Below, piece after piece: positions 793-60,185 of a DNA stretch of 64,000 bases. The notes beneath the pieces are model-generated. The model saw only the letters and a list, made by a program, of their open reading frames with translations. It did not search any database and was not told where the DNA came from. The stretch's first letter is position 1. Each line of letters opens with the position of its first letter. The stretch is from Muribaculaceae bacterium (GTDB lineage Bacteria; Bacteroidota; Bacteroidia; Bacteroidales; Muribaculaceae). The stretch spans positions 1 through 64,000 of the forward strand of contig JAIDXM010000106.1 in assembly GCA_029058745.1 (NCBI GenBank), in the 5' to 3' direction. The position numbers were made by a program, and so were the translations under genes.

Positions 793-1050
793 TTATGACG
801 TTGCCATGGCAAGTATGTTTTCAGGGATTCGGAAGAAGTAGTCGTATTTTATGTCGCCACACCGTGCATTGTAGATATTTCCGTCAATCTCATATTTGCC
901 GAATTCGAGTATCAGCATTACGTCTGTGTCTATTTCGATGTGGAAAACTTTGACATCATCGAATGCAGTCATTGACAGGGTTCCGTCAACACGTTCAAGG
1001 TTGGAGTTTATGCCTGGGAGTATTCCGAATGTTGTTTTTATTTCGTTCAT
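793..1050 (-). CDS. Hypothetical protein, 85 aa
   Basis: A small open frame read from the minus strand. I prefer the internal ATG at 1050 (MNEIKTTFGILPG) to the more distant upstream ATG at 1152, because the intervening 34 residues are Cys/Pro-rich and look non-coding. The product is acidic, has no signal peptide or membrane segment, and alternates hydrophobic and polar residues like a small beta-rich cytoplasmic protein. I do not recognise the family. No ribosome binding site is evident, which is usual in Bacteroidota. Its 3' end lies 11 bp from the end of the convergent LRR fragment. Confidence 0.4.
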   Translation of the reverse strand: MNEIKTTFGILPGINSNLERVDGTLSMTAFDDVKVFHIEIDTDVMLILEFGKYEIDGNIYNARCGDIKYDYFFRIPENILAMATS

Positions 1051-1346
1051 ATTAAATGGTGTTTTTATAGTCGCCACAGAAAGTATTTGTGCATTTCCGA
1101 GGTAGGGACATGCCTTTGGCATGTAGGATTCGCACAGGTATAAAATGCACATTTATTCTGTGTGCTGACTATAGTTATCGTTTTAAAGTAATAACGCATT
1201 TGGGGAGGTGACGGTTTGCTGGATTTTTTTATGTAAAATTATGTTAAAAATGATATTTGCCATTGAACCAAAAGGGTGGTTTGGTTGTCATATAATTAGA
1301 AAATCGTTTCATGATGTTAGGTTAGTTTGAAAATTAAGTATTATTG

Positions 1347-1380
1347 AAAAAGAAAGCGGTCGATGTGAATCGGCCGCTTT
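1347..1380 (-). terminator. Intrinsic terminator of the oxalate operon
   Basis: Arms 1353-1364 and 1369-1380 (AAAGCGGTCGAT / ATCGGCCGCTTT) pair over 12 bp with one G-U and a 4-nt loop. Read on the minus strand the hairpin is followed by CTTTTTC, so it fits an intrinsic terminator 13 nt after the stop codon of the flavin-reductase-like gene. Confidence 0.75.
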
Positions 1381-1392
1381 TGCTTTGTAGTA

Positions 1393-1959
1393 TTATTTCA
1401 ATTTCTTGCCTACAGAGAATGCTTTGGCAACCACAGGACCGAGAGTCCGGTAGGTGTTGGACTCTGAATCAAAAGTTATCGGCTTCAGTTTTGAGTAATC
1501 AACCTTTCCGTTTTCATCAAGTATCGTGTCATCTGCGACAGTCCTTACAACTTCAGCGACGATTCTTGTGCCACCGTCACCAATGTCGGTTATGGAAACC
1601 ACCTTGCATTCCATTGCAAGGATGAATTCCTCAATTATAGGAGCCATCACTTTTTCAGCAGGCACAACGGTGGCATGTACATGACTTAGTTTTGTCTTGT
1701 CATGTCCGGAGACGATTCCGAGATAATCGGCGAGTTCCACGCGTTCCTCGTCAGCTATATGCACAGTCATAGCCCCCGTTTTTCGTATGTTTTCCGTTGT
1801 TTTATGATTAGAAGAGATATTGATGGCGATTTTGTTGTCCCAACATTGTCCTCCCCATGCCACATTCATGGCATCCGGGTTCTTGTCTTTGTCATAAGTG
1901 GCTACAATCAATACGGGATGAGGTGCTATGATTGCGCGTGTCTTTATTTCCTTAAGCAT
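1393..1959 (-). CDS. Flavin reductase-like / flavoredoxin family protein
   Basis: A 188-residue protein of the FMN-binding flavin reductase-like (DIM6/NTAB, flavoredoxin) family. It shows the typical split-barrel opening 'APHPVLIVATYD...PDAMNVAWGGQCWDNKIAINIS', then a 'T.ENI..TGAMTVHIA' segment. Family members bind FMN and either reduce free flavin or act as electron-transfer flavoproteins. Length is normal. It is the last gene of the oxalate operon, 19 bp after the AEC transporter gene, and is followed by a terminator. Nothing in oxalyl-CoA decarboxylation or CoA transfer needs flavin, so its role there is unclear; a redox or detoxification link is inference only. Confidence 0.8.
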   Translation of the reverse strand: MLKEIKTRAIIAPHPVLIVATYDKDKNPDAMNVAWGGQCWDNKIAINISSNHKTTENIRKTGAMTVHIADEERVELADYLGIVSGHDKTKLSHVHATVVPAEKVMAPIIEEFILAMECKVVSITDIGDGGTRIVAEVVRTVADDTILDENGKVDYSKLKPITFDSESNTYRTLGPVVAKAFSVGKKLK

Positions 1960-1978
1960 ATTGCAAACTTTTTTAATA

Positions 1979-2953
1979 TCATATCATTTTTAGCGCCAAG
2001 TCGGTAATCCATATCCAGAGAGGGCAGAACCCAATGAAAAGGATTACAGACAGTGTGAGGGAAGATGTTCCCGTGGCAACGTAGCAGTTGTATTCATCCG
2101 CGATTATAATTCCGGAGAATGCGGGGGGGAGAGCCCCGGCCACAACAAGCATCTTAAGATTTTCCGGGTCCATCTTGAAAACAATTCCAAGTATGAGAAT
2201 AACGGCCGGCATCATAATCATCTTCATAATCGAACCAAGAACAGCTTGCCAGTTCAAAGAGAATTTAATAGCCGAAAGCGTTATTCCGGCAGAGAATACA
2301 GCCATTGATGCATTAGCCTTGGCGATAAGGTTGAACGAAGGGGATGCCCATTCAGGCCATGGAATTCCGACCACTACCCATATAACCGCCAATATCGGCG
2401 CCCAGGCAACCGGTTGTTCAAGGGCGTGTATCACAGGCGCCCAGGCGCTTTGTTTCTTTACGGCGCCGGTCTGTTGTGTTTCAAGAGATGCGTTCATGAG
2501 TGATAGTCCCACCGGGATGCCGATAGCGTTAACTATGATTCCTACAATTGCCACAACGAGAGCGACAGAAGGAGATGTCCCGAAAATAGGCTCAAGAACC
2601 GCGAATCCAAGGAATCCTATTGTCGGGGATCCGCTGATAAGCGCAGATACGGCAGCATCGGCACCTGTGTTTTTCTTGAAGCAAAACTTGAAAACAAAAT
2701 AGACGAGCATGAAGCAGGCCATTATTCCGATGGCGGAGACGACAGTGAGTTTGATGTCGCGCACCAGCATATCGCGACTTGCCTGAACGATGGAGACAAA
2801 CAAGGCGGCAGGCAATGCGTAGTCAAGCACAACTTTGTTGAACTTCTTAGCATCCTCACCCGAGAATATGCCCTTCTTTCCGGATATGAAGCCGGCAAGC
2901 ATCACCACAATGATAGGGACGATGGCATATAATATAACATGAGAAATGTCCAT
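1979..2953 (-). CDS. AEC (auxin efflux carrier) family transporter, probable oxalate/formate-type permease
   Basis: A 324-residue inner-membrane protein with about ten hydrophobic segments, opening 'ISHVILYAIVPIIVVMLAGFISGKKGIFS' and followed by the AEC signature 'FNKVVLDYALPAALF'. The AEC family includes bacterial malate and dicarboxylate carriers. In E. coli the AEC gene yfdV sits next to yfdW and yfdU, the formyl-CoA transferase and oxalyl-CoA decarboxylase genes. The same three-gene neighbourhood here suggests that this protein moves oxalate, formate or a related small acid. That substrate is inferred from context; the family call is firm. Confidence 0.82.
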   Translation of the reverse strand: MDISHVILYAIVPIIVVMLAGFISGKKGIFSGEDAKKFNKVVLDYALPAALFVSIVQASRDMLVRDIKLTVVSAIGIMACFMLVYFVFKFCFKKNTGADAAVSALISGSPTIGFLGFAVLEPIFGTSPSVALVVAIVGIIVNAIGIPVGLSLMNASLETQQTGAVKKQSAWAPVIHALEQPVAWAPILAVIWVVVGIPWPEWASPSFNLIAKANASMAVFSAGITLSAIKFSLNWQAVLGSIMKMIMMPAVILILGIVFKMDPENLKMLVVAGALPPAFSGIIIADEYNCYVATGTSSLTLSVILFIGFCPLWIWITDLALKMI

Positions 2954-3025
2954 AATTTAATTGTTTAAAAGTGATTTATAAATCCGTATATGCCGTACTT
3001 GCATCTTCAGCCCATCGAAGAGAGG

Positions 3026-4765
3026 CTATACGGTATATTCAATCAATGGTGCCGGATTCAGATAGCCGATATGTCCACTTTCCTTGCCGGCATCTGCGGC
3101 GAGCTGTACGTTTATGATTGCCGGCATTTTAGATGCAATTGCCTCTTCAAGAGCTTTTTTCAGTTCCATGGGGGATGAGACATAGTAGCCTTTCGCCCCG
3201 AACATGTCGCCCATTTTGTCGTATCGGGCATTGATGTCGAGGGTTGTTGGTGCCGGGTCATGTTCTATTGCGGGGTCTGATGAAGGATTGACACCAATGC
3301 TGTTATAGATTCCGCCATTGTTAAAGACCACAACAGTCACCGGAAGTCTGAAACGGCAGATTGTCGCGAAGTCCATTCCGGAGAAGCCGAATGCCGAGTC
3401 GCCTACTACGGCTACCACCTGTTTCCCGGTTGCGACGGAGGCACCGACACAAGATCCCATTCCCATTCCCATGATTGCCCATGTGGCGCAGTCAATACGA
3501 TGTCTTGGCAGTTTCATATCGATGGTGTCGCGTGTGTCATCAAGAGTGTTGGCCCCCTCGTTGACGAGAATGATGTCGGGATTGGCTGCGAGTACCGGTT
3601 TTATGGCACTTAGGGCGCTCCAATGGTTCATCGGGGAGAGGGACGCGGCTTCCGACAGCCTGGCCTCGAATTTCGCGTTTTTGATTTTCGTCTCGGCCTG
3701 CAGAGATTTCACCCAATCCGGGTCGGCCGCCATATTCTTGCCGTCAAGTGCGTTGAGCAATGCATTGAGAGATTCTTTGATGTCGCCGACAACAGGTGCG
3801 GCTATTGGTACGTTTACATCGATTTCAGAGGGTTCCACATCCAGCTGGACAAACTTAATCTCGGGATTCCACTTTCCTTTGCCGAAAGATAGCATCCAAT
3901 TAAGTCTTGCTCCGACAACAATCACGACATCCGATTTCTGCATGATGTCGGACCTGCAGGAAAGCGCACTCAGATTCCCATCGTCAGGAAGGAGGCCTTT
4001 TGCCATGGACATCGGAAGATACGGAATGTTGTAGGTGTCAACTAATTTTTTTATTTCGTTTTCAACCTGAGCGTAGGCCGCGCCTTTCCCGATTAATATT
4101 GCGGGACGTTTTGCAGAAAGGATAATCTCGGCAGCCCTTGCAATAGAATCATTGTTGGGGAGAGAGGGGGAATACACGTCAACCGGCGAGTAGAACAGTT
4201 TCTCGGCGTCAGATGCGTCCATAATCTCGGCAAGGGCAGGGGTTGTCATATCGATATACACTCCACCGGGGCGACCGCTGACAGCGGCTCTATAAGCACG
4301 GGCAACCGCTGACGGTATGTCGGAAGCGTGGCTGCATCTGAAAGCCACTTTTACCAAAGGACGTGCGGTGTTGAGCTGGTCAAGTTCCTCGTATGTCCCC
4401 ATTTTCATATCCACCATAGTGGGGTCGGAAGCACCGGAAATCTGAATCATGGGGTAACAGTTGACGGTTGCATTCGCAGTGGCGGTAAGTCCATTAAGAA
4501 ATCCTAAAGAAGATACGGTAAGCAGTACACCAGGCTTACGTGTGAGATAGCCGTGTGTGGCGGCTGCCATTCCGGCCTGTTGCTCGAATCTGAATCCTAC
4601 ATACTTGATTCCAACTTTCTGCATTGCATAGGCCGCTTCTGTGACGGGGATACCCACCAGTCCATACACATTGTCAAGGCCGAGTCGTTTAAGAGATTCG
4701 GCGAGAATATACATTCCGGTCACTTGTTCCGGGAAATGTGGTTTCGTATTGTTTGAAGTATTCAT
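3026..4765 (-). CDS. oxc: Oxalyl-CoA decarboxylase
   Basis: A 579-residue thiamin-diphosphate enzyme that decarboxylates oxalyl-CoA to formyl-CoA and CO2. The three ThDP-fold domains are present in order (N-terminal Pyr, central, C-terminal PP). Visible catalytic features match the Oxalobacter formigenes enzyme: the cofactor-activating Glu at 61 (RFEQQAG), the Tyr-Glu pair at 125-126 (GTYEELDQ), the ThDP/Mg motif GDSAFGFSG at 455-463 with NNGGIYN at 482-488, and the C-terminal ESGHIG segment. Length is normal for the family. It lies 79 bp after frc and 72 bp before the transporter on the same strand. This is more specific than a generic acetolactate-synthase-like call because of the Tyr-Glu and NEGAN motifs. 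Confidence 0.93.
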   Translation of the reverse strand: MNTSNNTKPHFPEQVTGMYILAESLKRLGLDNVYGLVGIPVTEAAYAMQKVGIKYVGFRFEQQAGMAAATHGYLTRKPGVLLTVSSLGFLNGLTATANATVNCYPMIQISGASDPTMVDMKMGTYEELDQLNTARPLVKVAFRCSHASDIPSAVARAYRAAVSGRPGGVYIDMTTPALAEIMDASDAEKLFYSPVDVYSPSLPNNDSIARAAEIILSAKRPAILIGKGAAYAQVENEIKKLVDTYNIPYLPMSMAKGLLPDDGNLSALSCRSDIMQKSDVVIVVGARLNWMLSFGKGKWNPEIKFVQLDVEPSEIDVNVPIAAPVVGDIKESLNALLNALDGKNMAADPDWVKSLQAETKIKNAKFEARLSEAASLSPMNHWSALSAIKPVLAANPDIILVNEGANTLDDTRDTIDMKLPRHRIDCATWAIMGMGMGSCVGASVATGKQVVAVVGDSAFGFSGMDFATICRFRLPVTVVVFNNGGIYNSIGVNPSSDPAIEHDPAPTTLDINARYDKMGDMFGAKGYYVSSPMELKKALEEAIASKMPAIINVQLAADAGKESGHIGYLNPAPLIEYTV

Positions 4766-4782
4766 AAATCAGTTTTTATAAA

Positions 4783-4822
4783 GGCTTGCGGAAATGAATG
4801 GATAAGATTCTTTCCGCAAGCC
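4783..4822 (-). terminator. Hairpin between frc and oxc (attenuator or processing site)
   Basis: A perfect 12-bp inverted repeat (GGCTTGCGGAAA at 4783-4794, TTTCCGCAAGCC at 4811-4822) with a 16-nt loop. It sits 22 nt after the frc stop and 17 nt before the oxc start codon. On the minus strand it is followed by TTTATAAAAA, a weak U-tract. It could act as a partial terminator or mRNA-stability element that lowers oxc relative to frc; that role is inferred. Confidence 0.6.
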
Positions 4823-4844
4823 ATGATGATAGAATAACAAGAGC

Positions 4845-6149
4845 TTATTTCTTGGCAATAGGAGCGGTGGTGCCGTTTGCCTTGAACTTGGCAATTTCGT
4901 CGGAGGAGTATCCAAGCCCGGAAAGTATTTCATCCGTGTTGCCGCCAAGTTCCGGACATGGCCCGTAGGCCGGTTGATAATTTGAAATTGTAAACGGACA
5001 CCCGACGGTTACGAACTCTCCGATTTCACCCCCTTGATTGATTTTGACGAGAGTGTTCCCGTCATAGAGCGACTCGTCGGACATGACCTCTTTTGTAGAT
5101 AAGACAGGACCTACTGGAACTCCAGCTTTGCCAAGGATTTCAGTTACCTCAAACTTTGTCTTGTCGGCAGTCCATTCGCCTATGCGTTTGTATATTTGCG
5201 GTTTATGCTTATCTCGGGCATCAGCGTTGTTGAAATCGGGGTTAGTGAGCCAATCCTGGAATCCTACAGCATTGCAGAATAGCTCAAAGTCTTTTTCGCC
5301 ACGTTGCAGGACAATATATACATAATTGTTGGCATCGAGTTCGGAGTCATATCCGCCGGCAGGCTTGCATTTGTAAGTCCATCCGAGCACACCGCCGCCT
5401 TCTATGTTGCCGGAACGAGGCACGCAGTCGCCGAATTTTCCATCGGGATATTGCGGGAACTGAGTAAGGTATCCGATTTTCTCAAGCGTTAGCTGGTCGC
5501 GGGTCTTGATTCTGCAAAGGTTCAGACAGGCATTGTGCATTGACTGATAAATGAAAGAACCCTCTCCGGTTTTTTCCCGTTGGCATATAGCCGCAAGTAT
5601 TCCGATTAGCAGATGCATTCCGGTATTAGAATCACCAAGGGCCGCCCCGCTTTGCGTAGGGATGTTGTAGTCGCCGTCATACCATCCGGTGGTGGATGCG
5701 GCGGCGGCAGTCACTTGCGCGATAGGTTCGTAGGCTTTCAAATCCTTGTATTTGGATGACTGAGGGAATCCCTTGATTGTCCCGTAGATACACTTGGGAT
5801 TGAGCTTGTGCACTTCCTCCCAAGAAAACCCAAGCTTATCCATTGCTCCGGGATGGAGATTCTCGATAAATATGTCGGCTTCCTTTATCAGTTTGGTGAG
5901 GATTTCTTTGCCGTCGGGCGTCTTTGCATCGAGCGCGAGTGATTTTTTATCAGAGTTGAGCTGCAGGAAGTAGTAGCTTGGAAGGTCGGGGTTGAACTGA
6001 AGCTCTTTTCTTGTGGCATCACCAACTCCGGGACGTTCAATCTTAATGACTTCGGCACCAAGCCATGCCAACATCTGTGTGCATGACGGGCCGGATTGCA
6101 CTTCGGTAAAATCTATAACCTTAATGCCTTGTAAGGGTGCTGTGTTCAT
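4845..6149 (-). CDS. frc: Formyl-CoA:oxalate CoA-transferase
   Basis: A 434-residue class III CoA-transferase that moves CoA from formyl-CoA to oxalate, making oxalyl-CoA for the next enzyme. The N-terminus (PLQGIKVIDFTEVQSGPSCTQMLAWLGA) is typical. The catalytic Asp, Asp169 in Oxalobacter Frc, is Asp173 here in the diagnostic LGDSNTGMH motif. The glycine loop that gates the active site appears as EGGGVLGW. It is the first gene of the minus-strand operon frc-oxc-AEC-flavin reductase. I found no exact TAnnTTTG promoter upstream. Confidence 0.93.
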   Translation of the reverse strand: MNTAPLQGIKVIDFTEVQSGPSCTQMLAWLGAEVIKIERPGVGDATRKELQFNPDLPSYYFLQLNSDKKSLALDAKTPDGKEILTKLIKEADIFIENLHPGAMDKLGFSWEEVHKLNPKCIYGTIKGFPQSSKYKDLKAYEPIAQVTAAAASTTGWYDGDYNIPTQSGAALGDSNTGMHLLIGILAAICQREKTGEGSFIYQSMHNACLNLCRIKTRDQLTLEKIGYLTQFPQYPDGKFGDCVPRSGNIEGGGVLGWTYKCKPAGGYDSELDANNYVYIVLQRGEKDFELFCNAVGFQDWLTNPDFNNADARDKHKPQIYKRIGEWTADKTKFEVTEILGKAGVPVGPVLSTKEVMSDESLYDGNTLVKINQGGEIGEFVTVGCPFTISNYQPAYGPCPELGGNTDEILSGLGYSSDEIAKFKANGTTAPIAKK

Positions 6150-6442
6150 AAAATAGTATAATTAACAAGATTTCGGTCTAAAGCGTATCGCTTATTTATG
6201 TAATAATAACCGTTTGTAAATGGAAAATGTTCAATTATAACGTTTGCATAGAATTGAGATTAGTAAAAAAAAGGTCAAATTGATTTGGGAAGCCGTCCCT
6301 TGGATTGTAATGCGGGGACATCCCCAAAGATTGTTTGATTGATTACTAAAATCTGAAATCGTGAAAAACAATCCTAGGGGATGTCCCTGCGTATATTCAA
6401 TAAATATGGAATCCTCTAATGAAATCCGTTTGTGATGTTGGG
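6150..6442. other. Intergenic region upstream of the oxalate operon
   Basis: A 293-bp AT-rich gap holding the frc leader and a long imperfect inverted repeat (6311-6391). A poor -7 match (CAATTATA at 6232-6239, minus strand) has no -33 partner, so the operon promoter is not assigned. It may need an activator. Confidence 0.4.
6311..6391. repeat. Imperfect inverted repeat with GGGACATCCCC core
   Basis: Arms 6311-6335 and 6367-6391 match in 21 of 25 positions around a 31-nt loop. Each arm holds a GGGACATCCCC core that is itself nearly palindromic. It lies downstream of the pectate-lyase gene (minus) and upstream of frc. It may end the lyase transcript. The same core appears in the stem of the hairpin at 39024-39091. 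Confidence 0.65.
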
Positions 6443-7885
6443 TTAAGGAATCATCACCTTCTGTCTGTTGTGTATGTATATCCCGTCAGATGGCGAAATA
6501 GTAGGAATCCCGTTCAGATTGTAGAAATTGCCAGAACAGTCTTCTCTGGATTCGACAGTAGGATTCAACGATGCCGTATCATCGCTGTCTGAGAATTGAC
6601 AACCTATTTTCAGAGCGGCGGCTTTGGAGTTGTCTTTAAGTTTCAGGAAAGTTATGTCGGGCAAAGAGCCGTCCTCATTACGCGGATAAAGGAGCTGGGA
6701 TGGGTCGAGGCTTAAAAAGTCAGAGTCATTAAGAGAAATCTCTGGCAAGAAGGAATTGTTCACGTAAGTGCTTGACGAAGTGTCTATGTTGACGCAATGC
6801 GCTCCCGACATGGTGGGGGAGTAGGAAAGATTGTTGGTCAGATGGTGGTCATATCCATCGACATCAACGGCTTTTTTGTGCGACTTCCTATTTACCATGT
6901 TGAAATTTCTCTTGTTGCGGAAGGATGTGTTGTTGTGGAAATCGAGACCTCCGAGATGGTGGTTGGCATAGAATCCCGCCTCTTTGTTGGACCATGCGAT
7001 ACAGTTGCGGACTACATTGCGAGGGACATTCTCTCCGGCTTTCACGTTCTGTTTCATTCCATATCCTCCGGATTTAAATCCGGTTCCGTCGCCACGGGAA
7101 ATCCGGTCGGCATCGTATCCGTTTTCCCAAGCCCAGCAGTTTTCGATTGTGACAGGTGCGAGATTGTTTATCAGGTCAAAGCCGTCGTCGCTGTTGCGCC
7201 ATGCCCTGCATCCTCTTATTACGTTCCCCGTGAAGCTCGCGTTGTTCATATGGAATCCGAATCCGTCGCAGTTCCCTCCTTTCCCATTTTCAGACACCGG
7301 GTCATAATTGTTGTAGGCATCACAGTTAAGTACAAGGTTGTTTTTCCCTCTTGTCGCATATACACCAATACCCATTCCATCGTGCATGTTCACACGTTCT
7401 ATGATGCAGTTATTTCCACCGAAGAGGGCTACGTTTATGCTCTGTGTATGTCCGGTCTGGGTGACTTGTATTCCGATTATGTCGAAATCACGAAGATGCC
7501 AATAGTCAGATTTGACGTGGAATCCTATCACTCTGGCGTCAGGCTTCACATCAGACAGGTCGATTGTTGCATTCTCACCGGGGTATCCGGATATTACTAT
7601 CGGAGATTCGGAAGAGCCATTAGAGGTAAGGTCATACACGCAGTCATAGACCCCTTCAGCTCCTTTTCTCATAACTTCTGATGGCTTCGGTCTGTATGTC
7701 CCTTCACGAAGAAAGATGGTTGTCCCCGGTTTTGCGGTTTCAATAGCCTTCCTTATAGAAAGGAACGGAGTGCCGAGGCTTCCATCATTGGAGTCATCTC
7801 CAGAAGGGGATACGTAATAGTCGGTGGCATGTGCCTGTAGAGACCATGATAATGCAAATAATCCGACGATAAAATGATTTTTCAT
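6443..7885 (-). CDS. Secreted PL9-like pectate lyase (right-handed beta-helix)
   Basis: A 480-residue protein with a signal peptide (about residues 1-20, ending QAHA) and the opening 'TDYYVSPSGDDSNDGSLGTPFLSIRKA' of parallel beta-helix lyases. Repeated turns rich in Asn ('NCIIERVNMHDGMGIGVY', 'NVIRGCRAWRNSDDGFDL', 'NVVRNCIAWSNKEAGFYAN') are typical of polysaccharide lyase family 9, which cleaves homogalacturonan. The last 30 residues (YNLNGIPTISPSDGIYIHN) resemble the short C-terminal tail often seen on exported Bacteroidales proteins. It stands alone with no SusC/SusD partners nearby. Substrate is inferred from the family. Confidence 0.8.
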   Translation of the reverse strand: MKNHFIVGLFALSWSLQAHATDYYVSPSGDDSNDGSLGTPFLSIRKAIETAKPGTTIFLREGTYRPKPSEVMRKGAEGVYDCVYDLTSNGSSESPIVISGYPGENATIDLSDVKPDARVIGFHVKSDYWHLRDFDIIGIQVTQTGHTQSINVALFGGNNCIIERVNMHDGMGIGVYATRGKNNLVLNCDAYNNYDPVSENGKGGNCDGFGFHMNNASFTGNVIRGCRAWRNSDDGFDLINNLAPVTIENCWAWENGYDADRISRGDGTGFKSGGYGMKQNVKAGENVPRNVVRNCIAWSNKEAGFYANHHLGGLDFHNNTSFRNKRNFNMVNRKSHKKAVDVDGYDHHLTNNLSYSPTMSGAHCVNIDTSSSTYVNNSFLPEISLNDSDFLSLDPSQLLYPRNEDGSLPDITFLKLKDNSKAAALKIGCQFSDSDDTASLNPTVESREDCSGNFYNLNGIPTISPSDGIYIHNRQKVMIP

Positions 7886-7918
7886 GAGCTGTTATTAAAT
7901 GTAGGGATTAGGAATTAT

Positions 7919-7962
7919 AATTATAAAGAACGGCGTCACATGTGACGCCGTTCTTTATAATT
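7919..7962. terminator. 44-bp perfect palindrome between the HU/SPOR gene and the lyase gene
   Basis: A perfect palindrome centred at 7940/7941 with two 22-nt arms and no unpaired loop (TTATAAAGAACGGCGTCACA plus its complement). It lies 9 nt after the stop of the upstream minus-strand gene. Its outer ends are A/T-rich, giving a U-rich tail, so it may serve as a terminator. Confidence 0.7.
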
Positions 7963-7971
7963 GGGATAATA

Positions 7972-8925
7972 TCAATTTCGGCTCCAGATCCAAGCGTTAG
8001 GAAACTTGGAGCTGATTTCTCTTGTGTTTAGATGACGACGAAGTTCCTCCTTGTCGTCAGATGATGCGACAGCCACCCGGCATACCCTCTTTGATGCTAC
8101 AGTGGAAAGGTGATACTCTTCAGAAGAATAGCGCGATGCATAATTCTCCGCTTCCTTAGCGGAAGAGAATGTAGCTACGATGAGATAATGGATGGGATCG
8201 TGAGACACGGCGGGACTCTTGGGTTCGGCAACAGTATTGATGGAATCCTGAATGGCCTCCTGCTTCGGCTTGATGGTCATCAGAGCCTCCACGGGCACCA
8301 CAGATGCCCTCTGTTCCTTTTCGTCATGTGGAATAGGATTCAGCAATATGGTGATGGCAACCGCAAACACAAGTATTAACGCGGCGGTCATTCTTGTGAA
8401 TGCTTTGTTGATTCTGATGTGATAGTATTTATTTTCAACCGTACGTTTCGCAGAATCGTCAAATCGGTTGTCATGTGTCAGGCATTTGTTGTTTTCAGAC
8501 AAAGACAGATTTGCGAAACATCCGACGGGATGATAACCCATATTCGCAGCCTGCAATTCGGATTTCATCATGGGAGAAAACATCAGTCTATTCTCCAATC
8601 CTAAAGATAGGGTGCCTAACTTTCCGCATTCATATTTCCCATTTTCGCGTATCTGCTGAAGCAGAGTGTTGACATCACGCAAGATTACCATTCTTGCTTC
8701 CTCAAAAGACAGTCCATGTTTTCGGGAATAAGAATTAGCGAGCAGACCGTCATCTATCGTGACAGCCTGATTGAACATGATTGCACGCGCAGGAGGGAAA
8801 ATCATACCAGCCTCCATATCAATCCTTGCAGACGATGTCGTGGCTATGAATGCACCCAAGCCAGGCACAATCACGCAGTCGTGGTGCAACAATAGGAATT
8901 CGATATGTCTGAAAAGGTTGTTCAT
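7972..8925 (-). CDS. HU-CCDC81-like and SPOR domain membrane protein
   Basis: A 317-residue protein. The start at 8925 (MNNLFRHIEFLLLHHDCVIVPGLGAFI) is preferred to the ATG seven codons upstream because the family begins this way. Residues 1-125 form the two prokaryotic CCDC81-like HU modules common in Bacteroidota; a transmembrane segment follows (LILVFAVAITILL), then a periplasmic linker and a C-terminal SPOR domain ('HYLIVATFSSAKEAENYASRY'). SPOR domains bind denuded septal peptidoglycan, and HU-like modules suggest DNA or chromatin contact, so a link between nucleoid and division site is plausible but unproven. A TAACTTTG -7 box lies at 8967-8974. Confidence 0.8.
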   Translation of the reverse strand: MNNLFRHIEFLLLHHDCVIVPGLGAFIATTSSARIDMEAGMIFPPARAIMFNQAVTIDDGLLANSYSRKHGLSFEEARMVILRDVNTLLQQIRENGKYECGKLGTLSLGLENRLMFSPMMKSELQAANMGYHPVGCFANLSLSENNKCLTHDNRFDDSAKRTVENKYYHIRINKAFTRMTAALILVFAVAITILLNPIPHDEKEQRASVVPVEALMTIKPKQEAIQDSINTVAEPKSPAVSHDPIHYLIVATFSSAKEAENYASRYSSEEYHLSTVASKRVCRVAVASSDDKEELRRHLNTREISSKFPNAWIWSRN

Positions 8926-8966
8926 GTGTAGATAGTCTCCACCCAAGACGGCTGGGTTTTCAGGTG

Positions 8967-8974
8967 CAAAGTTA
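8967..8974 (-). promoter_or_regulatory. -7 box of the HU/SPOR gene
   Basis: CAAAGTTA on the plus strand reads TAACTTTG on the minus strand, matching the Bacteroidota -7 consensus TAnnTTTG. It lies 42 nt upstream of the chosen start. No clear TTG is seen at the usual -33 spacing. Confidence 0.5.
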
Positions 8975-9012
8975 GTAATTATTTTTTTAACTCATGTAAT
9001 AAAATGATGAAT

Positions 9013-9843
9013 TTATCTTCGTCTTTCAGGTATGAACTGTTCAACAAGTTGTGGGTCAGCTCCTTTGTCAAGAGCTATTTTCCTGTCGATACTTGCTTCT
9101 TGATTCCTGAAATTCAAGAGGTGAAGATACCCCCTCGCAATGTAGAAGTCGGGGTGTTCGGGATAGATCTTTATTGAATTCACTATGTCTTGGGAAGCAT
9201 CGCTGTAGTTTTCCAGATTAATCTTCAGCAGGATTCTGGAGAATCTGGTTTCCGGATTGTCGTCAATGTTTATGGCCTCGTCATAAAATTTGAGGGCATC
9301 ATTAAAATTGCCTTCCTTCTCGGCAACCCTCGCAAGTCCGGCCATGGCAGTGCTGTTGCGAGGATTTAGCTTCGAAAGTCTTGTGAAATCTTTTCTCGCC
9401 TTCTCAATCTCATCGTTTCCAAGGAGGAGGAGCCCCCTCATCTGCAGAGGCCATTCTTGTATTGAGTCGATTTCGAGGGTTTCGTTAAGGTCGGAGAGTG
9501 CGTTCTCATAGTCTCCCATGAAAAGGAAAGTTCTTGCCCTATTTGTCCTTATAACGGAAGATTTCGGTGCAACCGACAGGCCGAGCCTGAATGCTTCGAG
9601 AGCTTCCTCCATTTTGCCGAGATTTGTCCTGACCACTCCGAGGTTGGAGAGCAAGAGCGCGTTTGAAAAATTGCCCGGTTCGAGTCTGAGAGCGGATATG
9701 ATTGTCGATTCTGCGTCACTCCATCGTTCTCGCTTTATGTAATTGTCGGCGGAGTCTGCCAGTTCCATATATTTAGGGGAGGAGGCATTGGCACCGAAAG
9801 AGAAAGCCACAAAGGCCAGTGTTGAAATCAGAAAATGTCTCAT
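9013..9843 (-). CDS. Secreted/periplasmic TPR-repeat protein
   Basis: A 276-residue protein with a signal peptide (about residues 1-20, ending FGANA) followed by roughly six tetratricopeptide repeats, for example 'SDAESTIISALRLEPGNFSNALLLSNLGVVRTNLG' and 'GNFNDALKFYDEAINIDDNPE'. TPR arrays are protein-binding scaffolds, and no catalytic domain is present. It lies downstream of dsbD on the same strand, separated by a strong hairpin that ends 9 nt before the start codon. Its partner cannot be predicted from sequence. Confidence 0.82.
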   Translation of the reverse strand: MRHFLISTLAFVAFSFGANASSPKYMELADSADNYIKRERWSDAESTIISALRLEPGNFSNALLLSNLGVVRTNLGKMEEALEAFRLGLSVAPKSSVIRTNRARTFLFMGDYENALSDLNETLEIDSIQEWPLQMRGLLLLGNDEIEKARKDFTRLSKLNPRNSTAMAGLARVAEKEGNFNDALKFYDEAINIDDNPETRFSRILLKINLENYSDASQDIVNSIKIYPEHPDFYIARGYLHLLNFRNQEASIDRKIALDKGADPQLVEQFIPERRR

Positions 9844-55680: not shown

Positions 55681-57579
55681 TCAGTCTCTTTCCAGGTAAG
55701 TTATTCCATACAGTCCGGACTTGTAGTTGTTGAGGAACTGGCGTCCCTCCTCCGGAGATATGATGCCTTGCTTCATGGACGCGGACACCCATGTCTCAAG
55801 GTTGCGCACAAGTTTTTTGGGGCTATATTCAACATAGTCAAGCACGTCGGCAACGGGTTCCCCGTCAATTACCTGCTCAATATGATACCTCTCCTTGTCA
55901 ACGGAAATATGCACCGCGTTGGTGTCGCCGAACAGATTGTGTAGGTCGCCGAGAATCTCCTGATATGCACCAACAAGGAACACTCCGATATAGTACTTGT
56001 CGTTCTGTTTGAATGAATGTACGGGAAGTGAGTATGACATACCCTGTGGAGAAACAAATCTGTTGATTTTTCCGTCGGAATCGCAGGTGATGTCTTGTAT
56101 GGTGCATCTCCGTGTCGGTTTCTCGTCAAGCCTTGAAATTGGCATTATCGGAAATAACTGGTCAATCGCCCATGAGTCGGGGAGGCTTTGGAAAAGCGAG
56201 AAATTGCAGAAATACTTTTCAGGGAGCATACGGTCCACCTTTCGCAGTTCTTCCGGAGGATGCTTCATGCTTCGGGTGAGGTCATTCACATCTCGAGCAA
56301 CAGACCAGAAAAGTTTCTCAATCTGAGCACGGGTGCGAAGATCAAGCAGACCGAGGCTGAACAGTTCAAGAGCCTCTTCCCTTATCTGAAGAGCGTCGTG
56401 CCAATCCTCGAATAGGGTAGTGGCGTTGATTCTGTCCCAGATGTTGTAGAGTTCCTTTGTCAGTTCGTGGGCATTCTCGTCGATGGTCTCATTGTCAAAC
56501 CATATTGGGAGTTGTGTTGTCTCCAGGACTTCGATAATGAGTACGGAGTGATGGGCAGAGAGAGATCTTCCGCTTTCAGTGATGATGTTTGGCTGATTCA
56601 GACCGTTTTTCACACATACATCAACAAGGGCGGAGACAGAGTCGTTGACATATTCCTGGATGGAGTAGTTCATCGAATTCTCACCCATTGATGAGCGTGT
56701 CCCGTCGTAATCCACACCAAGTCCTCCACCGATGTCAACAAATTCAATGTTGAATCCCATTTTAGATAGTTGCACATAGAATTGCATTGCTTCCCGGAGT
56801 GCATTTTTTATGCGTCTGATTTTAGTGATTTGACTACCGATATGGAAATGTATCAGTTTGAGAGACTCTGTAAGGTTGTTTTTCTCAAGAAAAGATAACG
56901 CATCAAGCAACTCAGAGGAGTTGAGACCGAATTTGCTGACATCGCCTCCGGATTCTTCCCATTTCCCGCTTCCAGAGGATGACAGTTTGATTCTTATTCC
57001 GATATTCGGGATTATGTTCAGCCGTTTTGCAACGTCTGCAATGAGTTTCAACTCGTTAAGTTTTTCGACCACAAGAAAAATCCTGCGACCCATTTTCTGC
57101 GCCAGCAACGCGAGTTCCACGTAATCTTCGTCCTTATAGCCATTGCAGACAATTAAGGAATTCGAGTGGGTGTTGACAGCAAGCACAGCATGCAGTTCCG
57201 GCTTGGAGCCGGCCTCCAGACCGATATTGTATTTATTTCCGTGGCTGACTATTTCTTCAACCACCTGACGCATCTGGTTCACTTTTATCGGATAAACGAT
57301 AAAATTCTGGCCAGTGTAAGAATACTCATTGGCTGCTTTCTTGAAGCATGACGATATTTTCTGAATCCTGTCGTCAAGGATGTCAGGGAAACGCAACAAG
57401 ACAGGAGCCGAGACGTCGCGAATCTTCAGCTCGTCAATCACCTCTTTGAGGTCAACAGGCGCGCATCCAACACGAGGAGTGACTTGGACGTGTCCTTTTT
57501 CATTGATAGAAAAGTATTTCAACCCCCAGCCGCTGATGTTGTAAATCTCAGCTGAGTCTTCAATTCGCCATTTTCTCAT
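55681..57579 (-). CDS. speA: Biosynthetic arginine decarboxylase
   Basis: A 632-residue PLP enzyme (alanine-racemase-fold class) that makes agmatine from arginine, starting polyamine synthesis. The PLP Lys99 is in YPIKVNQ; other motifs are 'FHIGSQIT', 'DIGGGLGVDYDG' and 'ITESGRSLSAHHSVL'. Length and domains match bacterial SpeA. It is the first gene of the unit speA-truA-EamA-ligA. A perfect 20-bp palindrome lies about 100 bp upstream. Its position next to the ArgR/ArgC-like genes suggests shared arginine regulation, but that is inferred. Confidence 0.95.
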   Translation of the reverse strand: MRKWRIEDSAEIYNISGWGLKYFSINEKGHVQVTPRVGCAPVDLKEVIDELKIRDVSAPVLLRFPDILDDRIQKISSCFKKAANEYSYTGQNFIVYPIKVNQMRQVVEEIVSHGNKYNIGLEAGSKPELHAVLAVNTHSNSLIVCNGYKDEDYVELALLAQKMGRRIFLVVEKLNELKLIADVAKRLNIIPNIGIRIKLSSSGSGKWEESGGDVSKFGLNSSELLDALSFLEKNNLTESLKLIHFHIGSQITKIRRIKNALREAMQFYVQLSKMGFNIEFVDIGGGLGVDYDGTRSSMGENSMNYSIQEYVNDSVSALVDVCVKNGLNQPNIITESGRSLSAHHSVLIIEVLETTQLPIWFDNETIDENAHELTKELYNIWDRINATTLFEDWHDALQIREEALELFSLGLLDLRTRAQIEKLFWSVARDVNDLTRSMKHPPEELRKVDRMLPEKYFCNFSLFQSLPDSWAIDQLFPIMPISRLDEKPTRRCTIQDITCDSDGKINRFVSPQGMSYSLPVHSFKQNDKYYIGVFLVGAYQEILGDLHNLFGDTNAVHISVDKERYHIEQVIDGEPVADVLDYVEYSPKKLVRNLETWVSASMKQGIISPEEGRQFLNNYKSGLYGITYLERD

Positions 57580-57789: not shown

Positions 57790-58110
57790 TTATTTTCTGC
57801 CGAGAATCTCAAACTTTTCAACTATAATCTCGGTTTTACGCCTCACAATCTTCATACGGTCTTCGTATTCCCTTGTGCGAAGGTAGCCCTCGACATAAAG
57901 CATGGAGCCTTTCCTCACATACCTTTCCACAATGGATGCATTCTGACCTCCGAATACAAGAGAATGCCATTCGGTTATTTCCACTCTGGCGGTTCCTCTT
58001 GTTTCGTTTGTAGCGAGAGAAAGATATGCTATGGGCCGGTCCTTTTCCGGATATCTCATCTCCGGATCAGCTCCCACATGACCGATAAGAATTACTTTAT
58101 TGACTGACAT
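57790..58110 (-). CDS. ssb: Short single-stranded DNA-binding protein
   Basis: A 106-residue protein with the SSB OB-fold opening 'MSVNKVILIGHVGADPEMRYPEKDRPIAYLSLATNE' and 'ITEWHSLVFGGQNASIVERYVRKGSMLYVEGYLRTREYED'. It stops after the OB-fold (...FEILGRK) and lacks the flexible tail and acidic C-terminal tip (DDDIPF-like) that standard SSBs use to recruit repair proteins. It may be a short paralogue or a PriB-like protein; another ssb may exist elsewhere. It is 9 bp after the ArgC-like gene. Confidence 0.87.
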   Translation of the reverse strand: MSVNKVILIGHVGADPEMRYPEKDRPIAYLSLATNETRGTARVEITEWHSLVFGGQNASIVERYVRKGSMLYVEGYLRTREYEDRMKIVRRKTEIIVEKFEILGRK

Positions 58111-58119
58111 GTTGACAAT

Positions 58120-59079
58120 TTAAGCAAACCAGGAGGTCTGTTGATTCGATTCGTTTTCATTTCCGTAGCATGATGGCTTCATGTTCAATCCGATTTTCTC
58201 ATCGAGAGAGAAAAACAGGTTCATGATGTGAACGGCGTCGCCCGCTCCCCCCCTCATATGACTGTCTCCTATAGATGCCAGTTCAAGTTGAGACTGGGAT
58301 GCCTTACAGAAAGTCACCACACATTTTTGAGTTCCCTCCACCTCTCTGAATCCAACTTCAGATATCCCCGTGAAGGTAAAACTGTGGTCGTCGTATATTG
58401 AATTATATACTCGGTCTATTTCCGTGATGTCGAGCGGGCATTTAAGGGAAATCCTCACTCGCATCGAACGGACGAGGTCATCTGGGATTACATCGATTTC
58501 AATTTTGCTGTTGAAACTTGTCTGTGTTTTTGCAAGCATAGCGGAAATCTCTTTGGCCACATTTTCCTTATCGATTTTCCTTGAGATTGCTTTAGAGGCT
58601 TCAACGCGAATCTTTATATCGGAAGATATAAGTAGATTTGAGGCAAGAGGATAGAGAGCATTCAATGCAAGTGCCGCTACGGAAGATGGCACCATTGCAA
58701 GCCTGGCTCCTCTCACAAGACATTTCCTGTTCATCTCGGAAAGTCCGTATTCCATTCCATTTGATTCCCAGAAATCGAATCTGTGAGGCGACATATCTAC
58801 GATGCGAAGATTCGGCCACTCGTCAGATCTCCTCATAAGAGAACGTCCGGTGTCGGAGTCATCTGCGATAAACACAATATCGTATTCCGACGGATTGAGC
58901 TTATCGGAGAAGTTCAAGGATTCCTCACCGATAAAACCGTGATGGCAGGAAGACAACAGTCTGCCTGATAATTTAGGGGCATACAGACATTTGATTACCA
59001 CCTCCGGATGATGGATGAGGATTCTTAAAAGTTCACCGGCGTCCGGACTGTCGGCACCGATAATTCCGACTTTGATCAT
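58120..59079 (-). CDS. ArgC-like protein lacking the catalytic Cys and His
   Basis: A 319-residue homologue of N-acetyl-gamma-glutamyl-phosphate reductase. The dinucleotide-binding start (VGIIGADSPDAGELLRILIHHPEV), 'IVDMSPHRFDFW', 'YGLSEMNR' and the C-terminal 'RGGAGDAVHIMNLFFSLDEKIGL' align with ArgC. But the active-site segment normally reading PGCYPT is PSSVAA, with Ser133 in the place of the nucleophile Cys, and the usual HRHxPEI and TPHL segments are missing. The gene is intact, with no stops. It cannot make arginine by the normal mechanism and may be a regulatory or altered-function protein. It lies between argR and ssb. Confidence 0.82.
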   Translation of the reverse strand: MIKVGIIGADSPDAGELLRILIHHPEVVIKCLYAPKLSGRLLSSCHHGFIGEESLNFSDKLNPSEYDIVFIADDSDTGRSLMRRSDEWPNLRIVDMSPHRFDFWESNGMEYGLSEMNRKCLVRGARLAMVPSSVAALALNALYPLASNLLISSDIKIRVEASKAISRKIDKENVAKEISAMLAKTQTSFNSKIEIDVIPDDLVRSMRVRISLKCPLDITEIDRVYNSIYDDHSFTFTGISEVGFREVEGTQKCVVTFCKASQSQLELASIGDSHMRGGAGDAVHIMNLFFSLDEKIGLNMKPSCYGNENESNQQTSWFA

Positions 59080-59106: not shown

Positions 59107-59598
59107 TTAGAGTTGGTCAGGGTCGATTGATAGAATCGCGGCGAGCACTTCCTTTGCTCGTTCCTTTTCCACGTCTTCCCGTAACACAGCGAATATAGTG
59201 TCGCTTCCGGGAATGGTGCCAATAATCTCAGGCGATCCGCTTACGTCAATATCATATGCAAGACCAGAGGCATAGCCGTTTCGGGTTTTTATCACAGCGA
59301 TGTTTCCTGAAAACTGCATTGAGAGGAATCCGCTTTGGTAGTTTGCCCGGATGGGTGCCCTTCCGGTGGTGAGAATCTTATCCTTCAAGGAATTGCTTTC
59401 AGGGAGCACATACATGTATGTGCCTCTGTCGGTGGGCACTTTCGTTGTGCGAAGCATCTTGAGGTCGCGAGAGAGAGTCGCCTGAGTGACATTATGTCCT
59501 TTTTCAGCCAAAATATGGGCGAGTTCTTCCTGACTGCCAATACATTGGTTGCGTATGAGCTCAACAATTATATCAATTCTTTTTTTTCTGTTCTTCAT
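59107..59598 (-). CDS. argR: ArgR-family arginine regulator with altered effector motif
   Basis: A 163-residue regulator. The winged helix is normal ('QEELAHILAEKGHNVTQATLSRDLKML', with the Ser-Arg pair that contacts the operator). The C-terminal oligomer domain has 'GTIPGSDTIFAVL', where E. coli ArgR has GTIAGDDT; the first of the two arginine-binding Asp is Ser132 here, and Asp133 is kept. Arginine sensing may be weaker or changed. Its start overlaps the stop of the bifunctional nuclease gene by 4 bp, and the ArgC-like gene is 27 bp downstream. Confidence 0.9.
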   Translation of the reverse strand: MKNRKKRIDIIVELIRNQCIGSQEELAHILAEKGHNVTQATLSRDLKMLRTTKVPTDRGTYMYVLPESNSLKDKILTTGRAPIRANYQSGFLSMQFSGNIAVIKTRNGYASGLAYDIDVSGSPEIIGTIPGSDTIFAVLREDVEKERAKEVLAAILSIDPDQL

Positions 59599-60185
59599 GA
59601 CTTATCGTTATTTTCTTTGCGATTGTCAATTTCAGCCTTTATGCGGGCCGCCTCTTCATAGTCTTCTTTTTCGGCCGCTTTCATCATAGCCTCCGAAAGT
59701 TCTGACAAGGACATCGCGGAGAGTTCGTCTCCGGGAGCCTTTTCATCATTGTCGGGGCCATATTTCCCTGTGTTGTCGGGTTCGAATCCTGATTCTGCGA
59801 GCACAGATTCCGAAGTGTATATGGGGGCTCCCACTCTAATAGCCAGGGCTACGGCATCTGATGACCTTGAATCAATGATTTTTTCAGTGTTGCCGTCAGA
59901 GAATATAAGGTTGGCGGCAAATACTCCGTTGGGGAGTTTCCTGATTTCCACTTCAATCAGGGAAATACCAAACGCGGCCAGTGTGGTCACCATTGTGTCG
60001 TGTGTCAGTGGACGAGGGGTTGCTACTTCCTGCAGCTTACACTCGATGGCCTGAGCCTCCGGAAAGCCAATGATAATGGGTATTCTCCTTGAGCCTCCGG
60101 CTTGCTGAAGAATGAGGGCATACACTCCCGATTCAATCTGATTGTATGTTATCCCCACCAATTCAAGTCTATATCTATTGTCCAT
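59595..60185 (-). CDS. Bifunctional nuclease family (DUF151) protein with UVR motif
   Basis: A 196-residue protein. Residues 1-135 are the BFN/DUF151 domain ('LVGITYNQIESGVYALILQQAGGSRRIPIIIGFPEAQAIE' and 'DSRSSDAVALAIRVGAPIYTSESVL'). The C-terminal 'LSEAMMKAAEKEDYEEAARIKAEIDNRK' is a UVR motif, as in UvrB/UvrC and Clp partners. The family has plant and archaeal members with nuclease activity; its bacterial role is unclear. It is 15 bp after mnmA and overlaps argR by 4 bp. Confidence 0.88.
   Translation of the reverse strand: MDNRYRLELVGITYNQIESGVYALILQQAGGSRRIPIIIGFPEAQAIECKLQEVATPRPLTHDTMVTTLAAFGISLIEVEIRKLPNGVFAANLIFSDGNTEKIIDSRSSDAVALAIRVGAPIYTSESVLAESGFEPDNTGKYGPDNDEKAPGDELSAMSLSELSEAMMKAAEKEDYEEAARIKAEIDNRKENNDKS

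Follow-up and report, generated by a model that had tools for sequence, protein, structure and literature searches.

The 64,000-nucleotide stretch of a Muribaculaceae genome analyzed here (assembly GCA_029058745.1, contig JAIDXM010000106.1, positions 1 to 64,000; hereafter, the window) contains, directly downstream of argR, a gene for a 319-residue relative of the arginine biosynthesis enzyme ArgC that lacks the catalytic cysteine. This protein, which we call pseudo-ArgC, is probably a pseudoenzyme that arose from the argC of the native arginine operon and has been kept for a second, non-catalytic job, independent of arginine synthesis. The grounds for this reading are the predicted ArgC fold with lost catalytic and cofactor motifs, the descent from the native argC, purifying selection, and the persistence of the gene in genomes where argR and the arginine-synthesis genes searched for were not found.

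Fold and lost catalytic parts

The gene and its distinctive parts are as follows.

58120..59079, minus strand: pseudo-ArgC, Cys-less ArgC-derived protein of 319 amino acids (open reading frame; TIGR01850 below cut-off; AlphaFold model and fold match)
59032..59058, minus strand: degenerate dinucleotide-binding loop, residues 8-16, GADSPDAGE (canonical GGAGYTAGE; alignment)
58681..58683, minus strand: codon 133, Ser in the place of the catalytic Cys (alignments)
58555..58575, minus strand: residues 169-175, deletion site of the substrate arm with the catalytic His (alignments)
58372..58395, minus strand: YDDHSFTF motif, residues 229-236 (sequence comparison)
58177..58266, minus strand: conserved C-terminal motif, residues 272-301, containing RGGAGDAVHIMNLFF (alignment)

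The initial annotation, made from the sequence alone, had described a full-length gene without stops, and such a gene is indeed present, though on the minus strand; it starts with ATG and has zero internal stops. The good overall alignment with ArgC, noted at the same time, holds as well: homology spans nearly the whole length, TIGR01850 matching residues 2-302 (E 4.2e-23) with 82.1 bits, below the equivalog cut-off of 233.6, and PF01118 scoring 34.9 bits, above its cut-off of 26. Pseudo-ArgC shares descent with ArgC and, according to the AlphaFold model and its fold match, has the ArgC fold; aspartate-semialdehyde dehydrogenase and malonyl-CoA reductase (3pyl, 4dpk) are farther from it than ArgC is, both in structure and in sequence.

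Canonical ArgC (1vkn, 2cvo, 2i3g) possesses a catalytic Cys, an arm with the catalytic His, and a dinucleotide-binding loop, whereas pseudo-ArgC is devoid of all three. As had been proposed, the nucleophile is replaced by Ser133 (PSSVAA), which stands opposite the catalytic Cys both in the alignment with 1vkn and in that of 155 ArgC-like proteins. We compared 70 Cys-less rows of the genus set (66 from the genus sample and four named public records) with 56 canonical ones, the two sets being split by motif residues, in coincidence with the source locus. PGC, the core of the catalytic motif (N)PGC[YF]xT, occurs in 0 of the 70 rows from the window-type locus, and all 31 PGC rows of the genus set come from loci with canonical matches. 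An alignment shift that hides the Cys, named at the outset as a possible objection, was rejected on these grounds; a stray Cys is present in one of the 70 rows (L025, VPDCVAS).

The segment with the catalytic His (H[RQ]H; in Bacteroidales ArgC, HQH) is missing from the window protein, where the deletion follows about residue 169-172, and from all 70 rows: positions H174, Y185 and H190 (numbering of L001, the working ArgC of the same genome) fall into a gap in 70 of 70, and H192 is kept in none. Of the two segments first reported as absent, the one bearing the His (HRHxPEI) is thus truly deleted, while the absence of TPHL says nothing, because the aligned canonical Bacteroidales ArgCs also lack it and have IPxRG in its place. 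There are further losses, beyond those initially listed, namely those of the dinucleotide loop (GGAGYT to GADSPD) and of the S-x-S motif following it, which we take to have an NADP-binding role. G11 of the loop is found in 0 of 70 Cys-less and 56 of 56 canonical rows, G8 being retained, and S34 and S36 are each kept in 11 of 70; judging by these residues, most of the NADP loop and the Ser motif are lost. The nucleophile and the catalytic His, which an ordinary ArgC needs, are gone as well, as the initial annotation had claimed. With nucleophile, His arm and NADP loop all lost, pseudo-ArgC should be unable to reduce an acyl phosphate by the known route.

In total, 77 positions conserved in at least 90% of the canonical rows are lost in the Cys-less rows of the genus set, including the NPGCFAT segment apart from its Pro and one Ala; of the Cys-less rows, 90% or more keep 36 positions, and 88% or more share a newly fixed residue at nine. 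One might suppose on this basis that the ArgC fold has been rebuilt into a new enzyme with other chemistry and perhaps another cofactor, acting through R204, H46, D231, H232, H284, and R276. These residues are invariant in a 62-row Cys-less alignment, and, compared with canonical ArgC, fixation is new for R276, E246, and G249, as well as for A279, which lies with R276 in the C-terminal motif. However, conserved residues need not mark a new site, because canonical ArgC already shows conservation of H46, R204, and N287, and its native form contains D231, H232, and H284 (see below). Since, in addition, both the dinucleotide loop and the catalytic arm are gone and no metabolic neighbor is constant across genera, we regard a new enzyme as rather unlikely.

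Persistence without arginine biosynthesis

A search profile was built from 62 Cys-less proteins; genomes with a completeness of 90% or higher and a contamination of 5% or lower are called good here. The profile matched in 93 of the 101 sampled genus genomes and in 42 of the 42 good ones; the Cys-less state was read directly in 66 distinct genus sequences, and at 92 of the 93 matches the open frame has at least 299 codons. Unlike canonical ArgC, pseudo-ArgC is kept in genomes where the searched pathway genes were not found. Canonical ArgC exceeded its cut-off in 41 of the 101 genomes and argB in 44 (57 counting weak matches), and argG had a strong match in 42 (46 counting weak ones). Canonical argC is present additionally in 41 of the 93 carriers, while 50 of the 93, 24 of them good genomes, have neither argB nor argC over the cut-offs, nor a strong argG.

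These figures bear on the proposal that pseudo-ArgC serves the working arginine enzymes (ArgC, ArgB or others) as an allosteric or structural subunit. The proposal is compatible with the 41 genomes where canonical ArgC is co-resident and has a parallel in the pseudoenzyme of eudicot indole biosynthesis reported in PMC12727527, which also belongs to an amino-acid-linked pathway. That system is a plant one, however, and here about half of the genus carriers are without the pathway genes searched for, so that in 50 of 93 such a subunit would have no over-cut-off ArgB or ArgC and no strong argG product to act on; we find this proposal very improbable.

In the family as a whole, 287 of 297 genomes (201 of the 205 good ones) contain an argC-like gene of either type, and 163 (101 of the good ones) contain argG, weak matches included. 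Of the 49 argC-like rows that came from the 29 other genera, the Cys is missing in 25; counting the window genus, 14 of 30 genera have one or more Cys-less forms (hand tally). In an order-wide sample of 198 genomes the Cys-less profile, with which divergent canonical ArgC may go undetected, matched in 59, three of them Muribaculaceae. Outside the family NPGCFAT and HQH were read in 8 of 8 fetched loci, and each of the five order rows of the 155-protein alignment retains both the Cys and the second His (genome G035 is common to both sets). Cys-less forms are therefore seen only in Muribaculaceae, all the outside rows read, from few genomes, being canonical.

Purifying selection

The ratio of nonsynonymous to synonymous substitution rates (dN/dS) ranged from 0.017 to 0.148 among the 25 pseudo-ArgC pairs listed and from 0.029 to 0.174 among the 25 listed for canonical argC (pairs sharing few words were skipped); the values are rough, because most dS are saturated, and none is near 1. 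In the two closest pairs among the 66 distinct genus copies, dS was 0.27 and 0.60 and dN/dS 0.020 and 0.017, respectively. The check for relaxed selection, suggested by the initial annotation, hence gave values far below 1, and the conserved Cys-less clade with low dN/dS that it had envisaged was borne out. Being an intact enzyme homolog without the catalytic residues and under purifying selection, pseudo-ArgC corresponds to the notion of a pseudoenzyme.

The many lost positions, the fast divergence and the second canonical argC in 41 of 93 carriers would also be expected if the gene were a neutral relic, a superfluous argC in the course of being lost. Against this stand the dN/dS of about 0.02-0.15, the intact frames and the retention of the gene in every good genus genome while 50 of 93 carriers are without the other arg genes searched for, which make neutrality extremely improbable. 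The idea of a gene that is simply dying was rejected on the basis of dN/dS and the intact frames.

Origin in the native arginine operon

In genera g21, g27, and g30 (loci L131, L137, L139, L142) an intact arginine operon has the order argR-GNAT-argG-argC-argD-proC-ssb, and in g22 and g28 (L133, L141) a shorter one, without argD and proC, is found, in g22 downstream of kdtA and gltX. The identities of argD, proC, gltX, kdtA, argH, the ArgE/DapE-type deacylase and the ornithine-carbamoyltransferase-type gene are backed by family searches, in which several of them scored under the curated cut-offs; the label GNAT is presumed by us, family searches having given no match.

Remnants of this operon (the remaining gene being denoted argC*) occur as argR-argC*-proC-ssb (L138), argR-argC*-proC (L208), argR-argC*-ssb (L140, L206, L209, L211 and the window), gltX-kdtA-argR-argC* (L134, L145), gltX-kdtA-argC* without argR (L127, L129, L135, L204, L205, L207, L210) and gltX-argC* (L136, L143, L212). 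The Cys-less gene is often the sole arginine enzyme gene remaining at the old operon locus. The canonical ArgC of the native operon (e.g., L131, L137) shares with pseudo-ArgC the place between argR and ssb and the motifs NRKxxVRGA and Y[SD]DHNFTF, differing from it in having NPGCFAT and HQH and in being located with GNAT and argG. YDDHSFTF of the window protein is near the native motif and differs from YKDAPFTV of the working ArgC of the same genome. In the phylogeny the Cys-less proteins fall into a single clade together with the native canonical ones (support 100/99), and the Cys-less gene descends from the argC of the native operon.

The 86-row tree was drawn from the 155 aligned rows plus six second copies and includes 20 Cys-less and six canonical rows of the genus and none of the four named public records; the rows of the 32-row and 28-row trees were picked by hand, and the partial locus L195 and copies with identical C-termini were dropped. 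The Cys replacement and the state of the His vary between genera: NPGSFAT with HQH in g37, NPGAFAT with HSH in g32, NPGGFAT with HRH in g33, and NPGNIAT in g41, which has both a Cys form adjoining argG (L171) and an Asn form without argG (L145). Parsimony gives three changes for the loss of the Cys on the 86-row tree and five on the 28-row tree, which lacks window-genus rows; on the latter a single Cys-less clade is not rejected by the approximately unbiased (AU) test (p 0.158), so that one and several losses are both compatible with the data.

A second, Cys-containing argC, which the initial annotation had suggested looking for, was found in the same genome on contig C33 (L001/L071, C33:1-12000), in an operon at 920-9273 with the order GNAT-argG-argC-argD-carbamoyltransferase-type-argB-deacylase-argH and no argR nearby. 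The only argG match and the over-cut-off argB match of the genome are on this contig and not on the window contig (C9), in accordance with the reported absence of these genes from the window; argD was identified on C33 as well, no genome-wide search for it having been made. ArgC of the C33 type is also present in g23, g24, and g37 (L196-L201), and the C33 operon may have been acquired horizontally. Pseudo-ArgC as a duplicate of this working argC was considered and discarded, its grouping with the second-operon type being rejected by the AU test (p 0.0011).

Several diverged relatives deserve mention. In g23 (L136, L166, L167, L186) a native argC remnant keeps the Cys (NPGC[VL]AM) and has Gln instead of the second His; at two g23 loci, L136 and L212, it still has the Cys and adjoins gltX, the remaining arginine operon genes being gone. 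This is possibly an intermediate stage. Genus g20 harbors extremely diverged ArgC remnants of about 300 amino acids, still adjoining kdtA and gltX, with end branches of 3.1 (L187/L205) and 2.44 (L179/L204) changes per column. Cys-less ArgC relatives of g39 (L202, L203) are 366 and 352 amino acids long due to extra inserted stretches and have no recognized old-operon neighbor; in L203 speA lies about 5 kb downstream.

Relation to ArgR

The genes adjacent to pseudo-ArgC in the window are listed below.

59107..59598, minus strand: argR, directly upstream, 27 bp before the pseudo-ArgC start
59595..60185, minus strand: BFN, bifunctional-nuclease-domain gene (PF02577, 119.2 bits), overlapping argR by 4 bp (synteny)
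57790..58110, minus strand: short ssb, 106 amino acids, directly downstream of pseudo-ArgC
55681..57579, minus strand: speA, biosynthetic arginine decarboxylase (NF003763, 880 bits), next gene downstream (synteny)

The argR of the window, the single argR match of its genome, has E 1.7e-33 and 115.7 bits with TIGR01529 (cut-off 130.45, not reached), and exceeds the cut-offs of PF01316 and PF02863. The initial annotation had suggested, as an example of reuse, that pseudo-ArgC is a sensor or partner of ArgR. Within the genus argR was detected in 83 of the 101 genomes, and in 82 of these the gene stands directly behind it, on the same strand (in the 83rd the two are on different contigs), so that the expected adjacency to argR was nearly constant wherever argR is present. 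It is not constant among the carriers: no argR was detected in 10 of the 93, and in nine of these ten the gap is closed, BFN abutting the gene at -5 to 48 bp. The tenth, G013, has neither argR nor BFN in the 737 bases that remain up to the end of the contig; this end (L154) carries, in the expected place of argR, a portion of some unrelated frame that includes a GREEG-rich stretch and may belong to a mobile element. For two argR-less genomes (G008 and G056) dN/dS of the gene was 0.11.

Among 29 chosen genomes ArgR was clear in eight, and two of these eight carry canonical native argC; among the 23 from other genera with Cys-less or His-altered ArgC (the choice leaned to loci without a neighboring argR) it was clear in six and not clear in 17. 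The adjacency to argR is therefore best taken as a legacy of the intact operon and not as a sign of partnership. With the gene kept where argR is gone, the proposed role as a sensor or partner of ArgR did not stand up, and we consider it quite unlikely.

Proposed non-catalytic role

Returning to a pseudoenzyme kept for a non-catalytic job, we suppose the following course of events. Once the neighboring arginine enzyme genes were deleted, the native argC would have been left between argR and ssb; a second arginine operon, or arginine available in the gut, might have made the activity of the native enzymes dispensable, so that the other genes were lost and argC stayed. In this case the non-catalytic role of the ArgC fold would be older than the loss of catalysis. 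Since the catalytic and cofactor motifs are lost and yet purifying selection is strong, the protein presumably acts through binding: most likely, as a folded oligomer, it binds some partner or ligand and would regulate or scaffold something encoded outside the arginine operon.

More generally, we are inclined to believe that ArgC of Muribaculaceae has a nearly indispensable non-catalytic function that outlives arginine biosynthesis, argC often being the sole arginine enzyme gene kept (14 of 30 genera), and that in one or several lineages the operon was dismantled and argC, stripped of catalysis, was selected for the other job. If this is true, behind a biosynthetic enzyme familiar from textbooks there is a hidden second role, which can be studied in gut bacteria free of the chemistry of the enzyme. 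Muribaculaceae would then offer a natural gradient that begins with canonical ArgC, continues with forms in which Ser, Ala, Asn, or Gly has replaced the Cys and one His or more remains, and ends with fully stripped ones, allowing the loss of catalysis to be separated from the retained function.

Several circumstances weigh against this interpretation. No partner, ligand or phenotype was found; the nearest neighbors vary between genera, and the synteny comparison of neighbors beyond the old operon suggested no partner that all genera have in common. Evolution of the protein is fast (in the genus loci compared, its identity to the window copy is 36-50%, as against 81-89% for speA), and dS exceeds 1 and is saturated in most pairs, being below 1 in just two of those listed. 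Four of the 205 good family genomes have no argC-like match at all, and the majority of the genomes are apparently drafts or assembled from metagenomes. The grouping rejected by the AU test was named after the first (86-row) tree had already been seen. Finally, in the window genus argR-argC*-ssb stands between mnmA-BFN and speA and not after gltX-kdtA; therefore, either the block moved or its flank was replaced, and it is only with respect to argR and ssb that the gene retains its original place.

Searches in open-licence PubMed Central turned up no description of an ArgC pseudoenzyme or of such retention, and no paper on the precedent Usg-1. PMC4271523 deals with ProA and is of no help for the ArgC question. 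For Bacteroidetes, PMC9026213 describes an arginine route via N-succinyl intermediates with ArgA2 as the proposed first enzyme, which would fit the GNAT-labeled gene of the operon.

Other genes of the locus

The position of BFN between mnmA and argR or pseudo-ArgC is kept in most genus loci compared for synteny. A culturable Muribaculaceae isolate, Isolate-037 (L039), also has pseudo-ArgC, with gene order unchanged. At the other side, ssb is the last gene of the native arginine operon in other genera too. The SSB protein of the window (106 amino acids) ends with KFEILGRK, and the neighboring ssb of L140 encodes 145 amino acids with the end PGEVPF. The main SSB of a bacterium is expected to have an acidic tail, and the window SSB ends without one.
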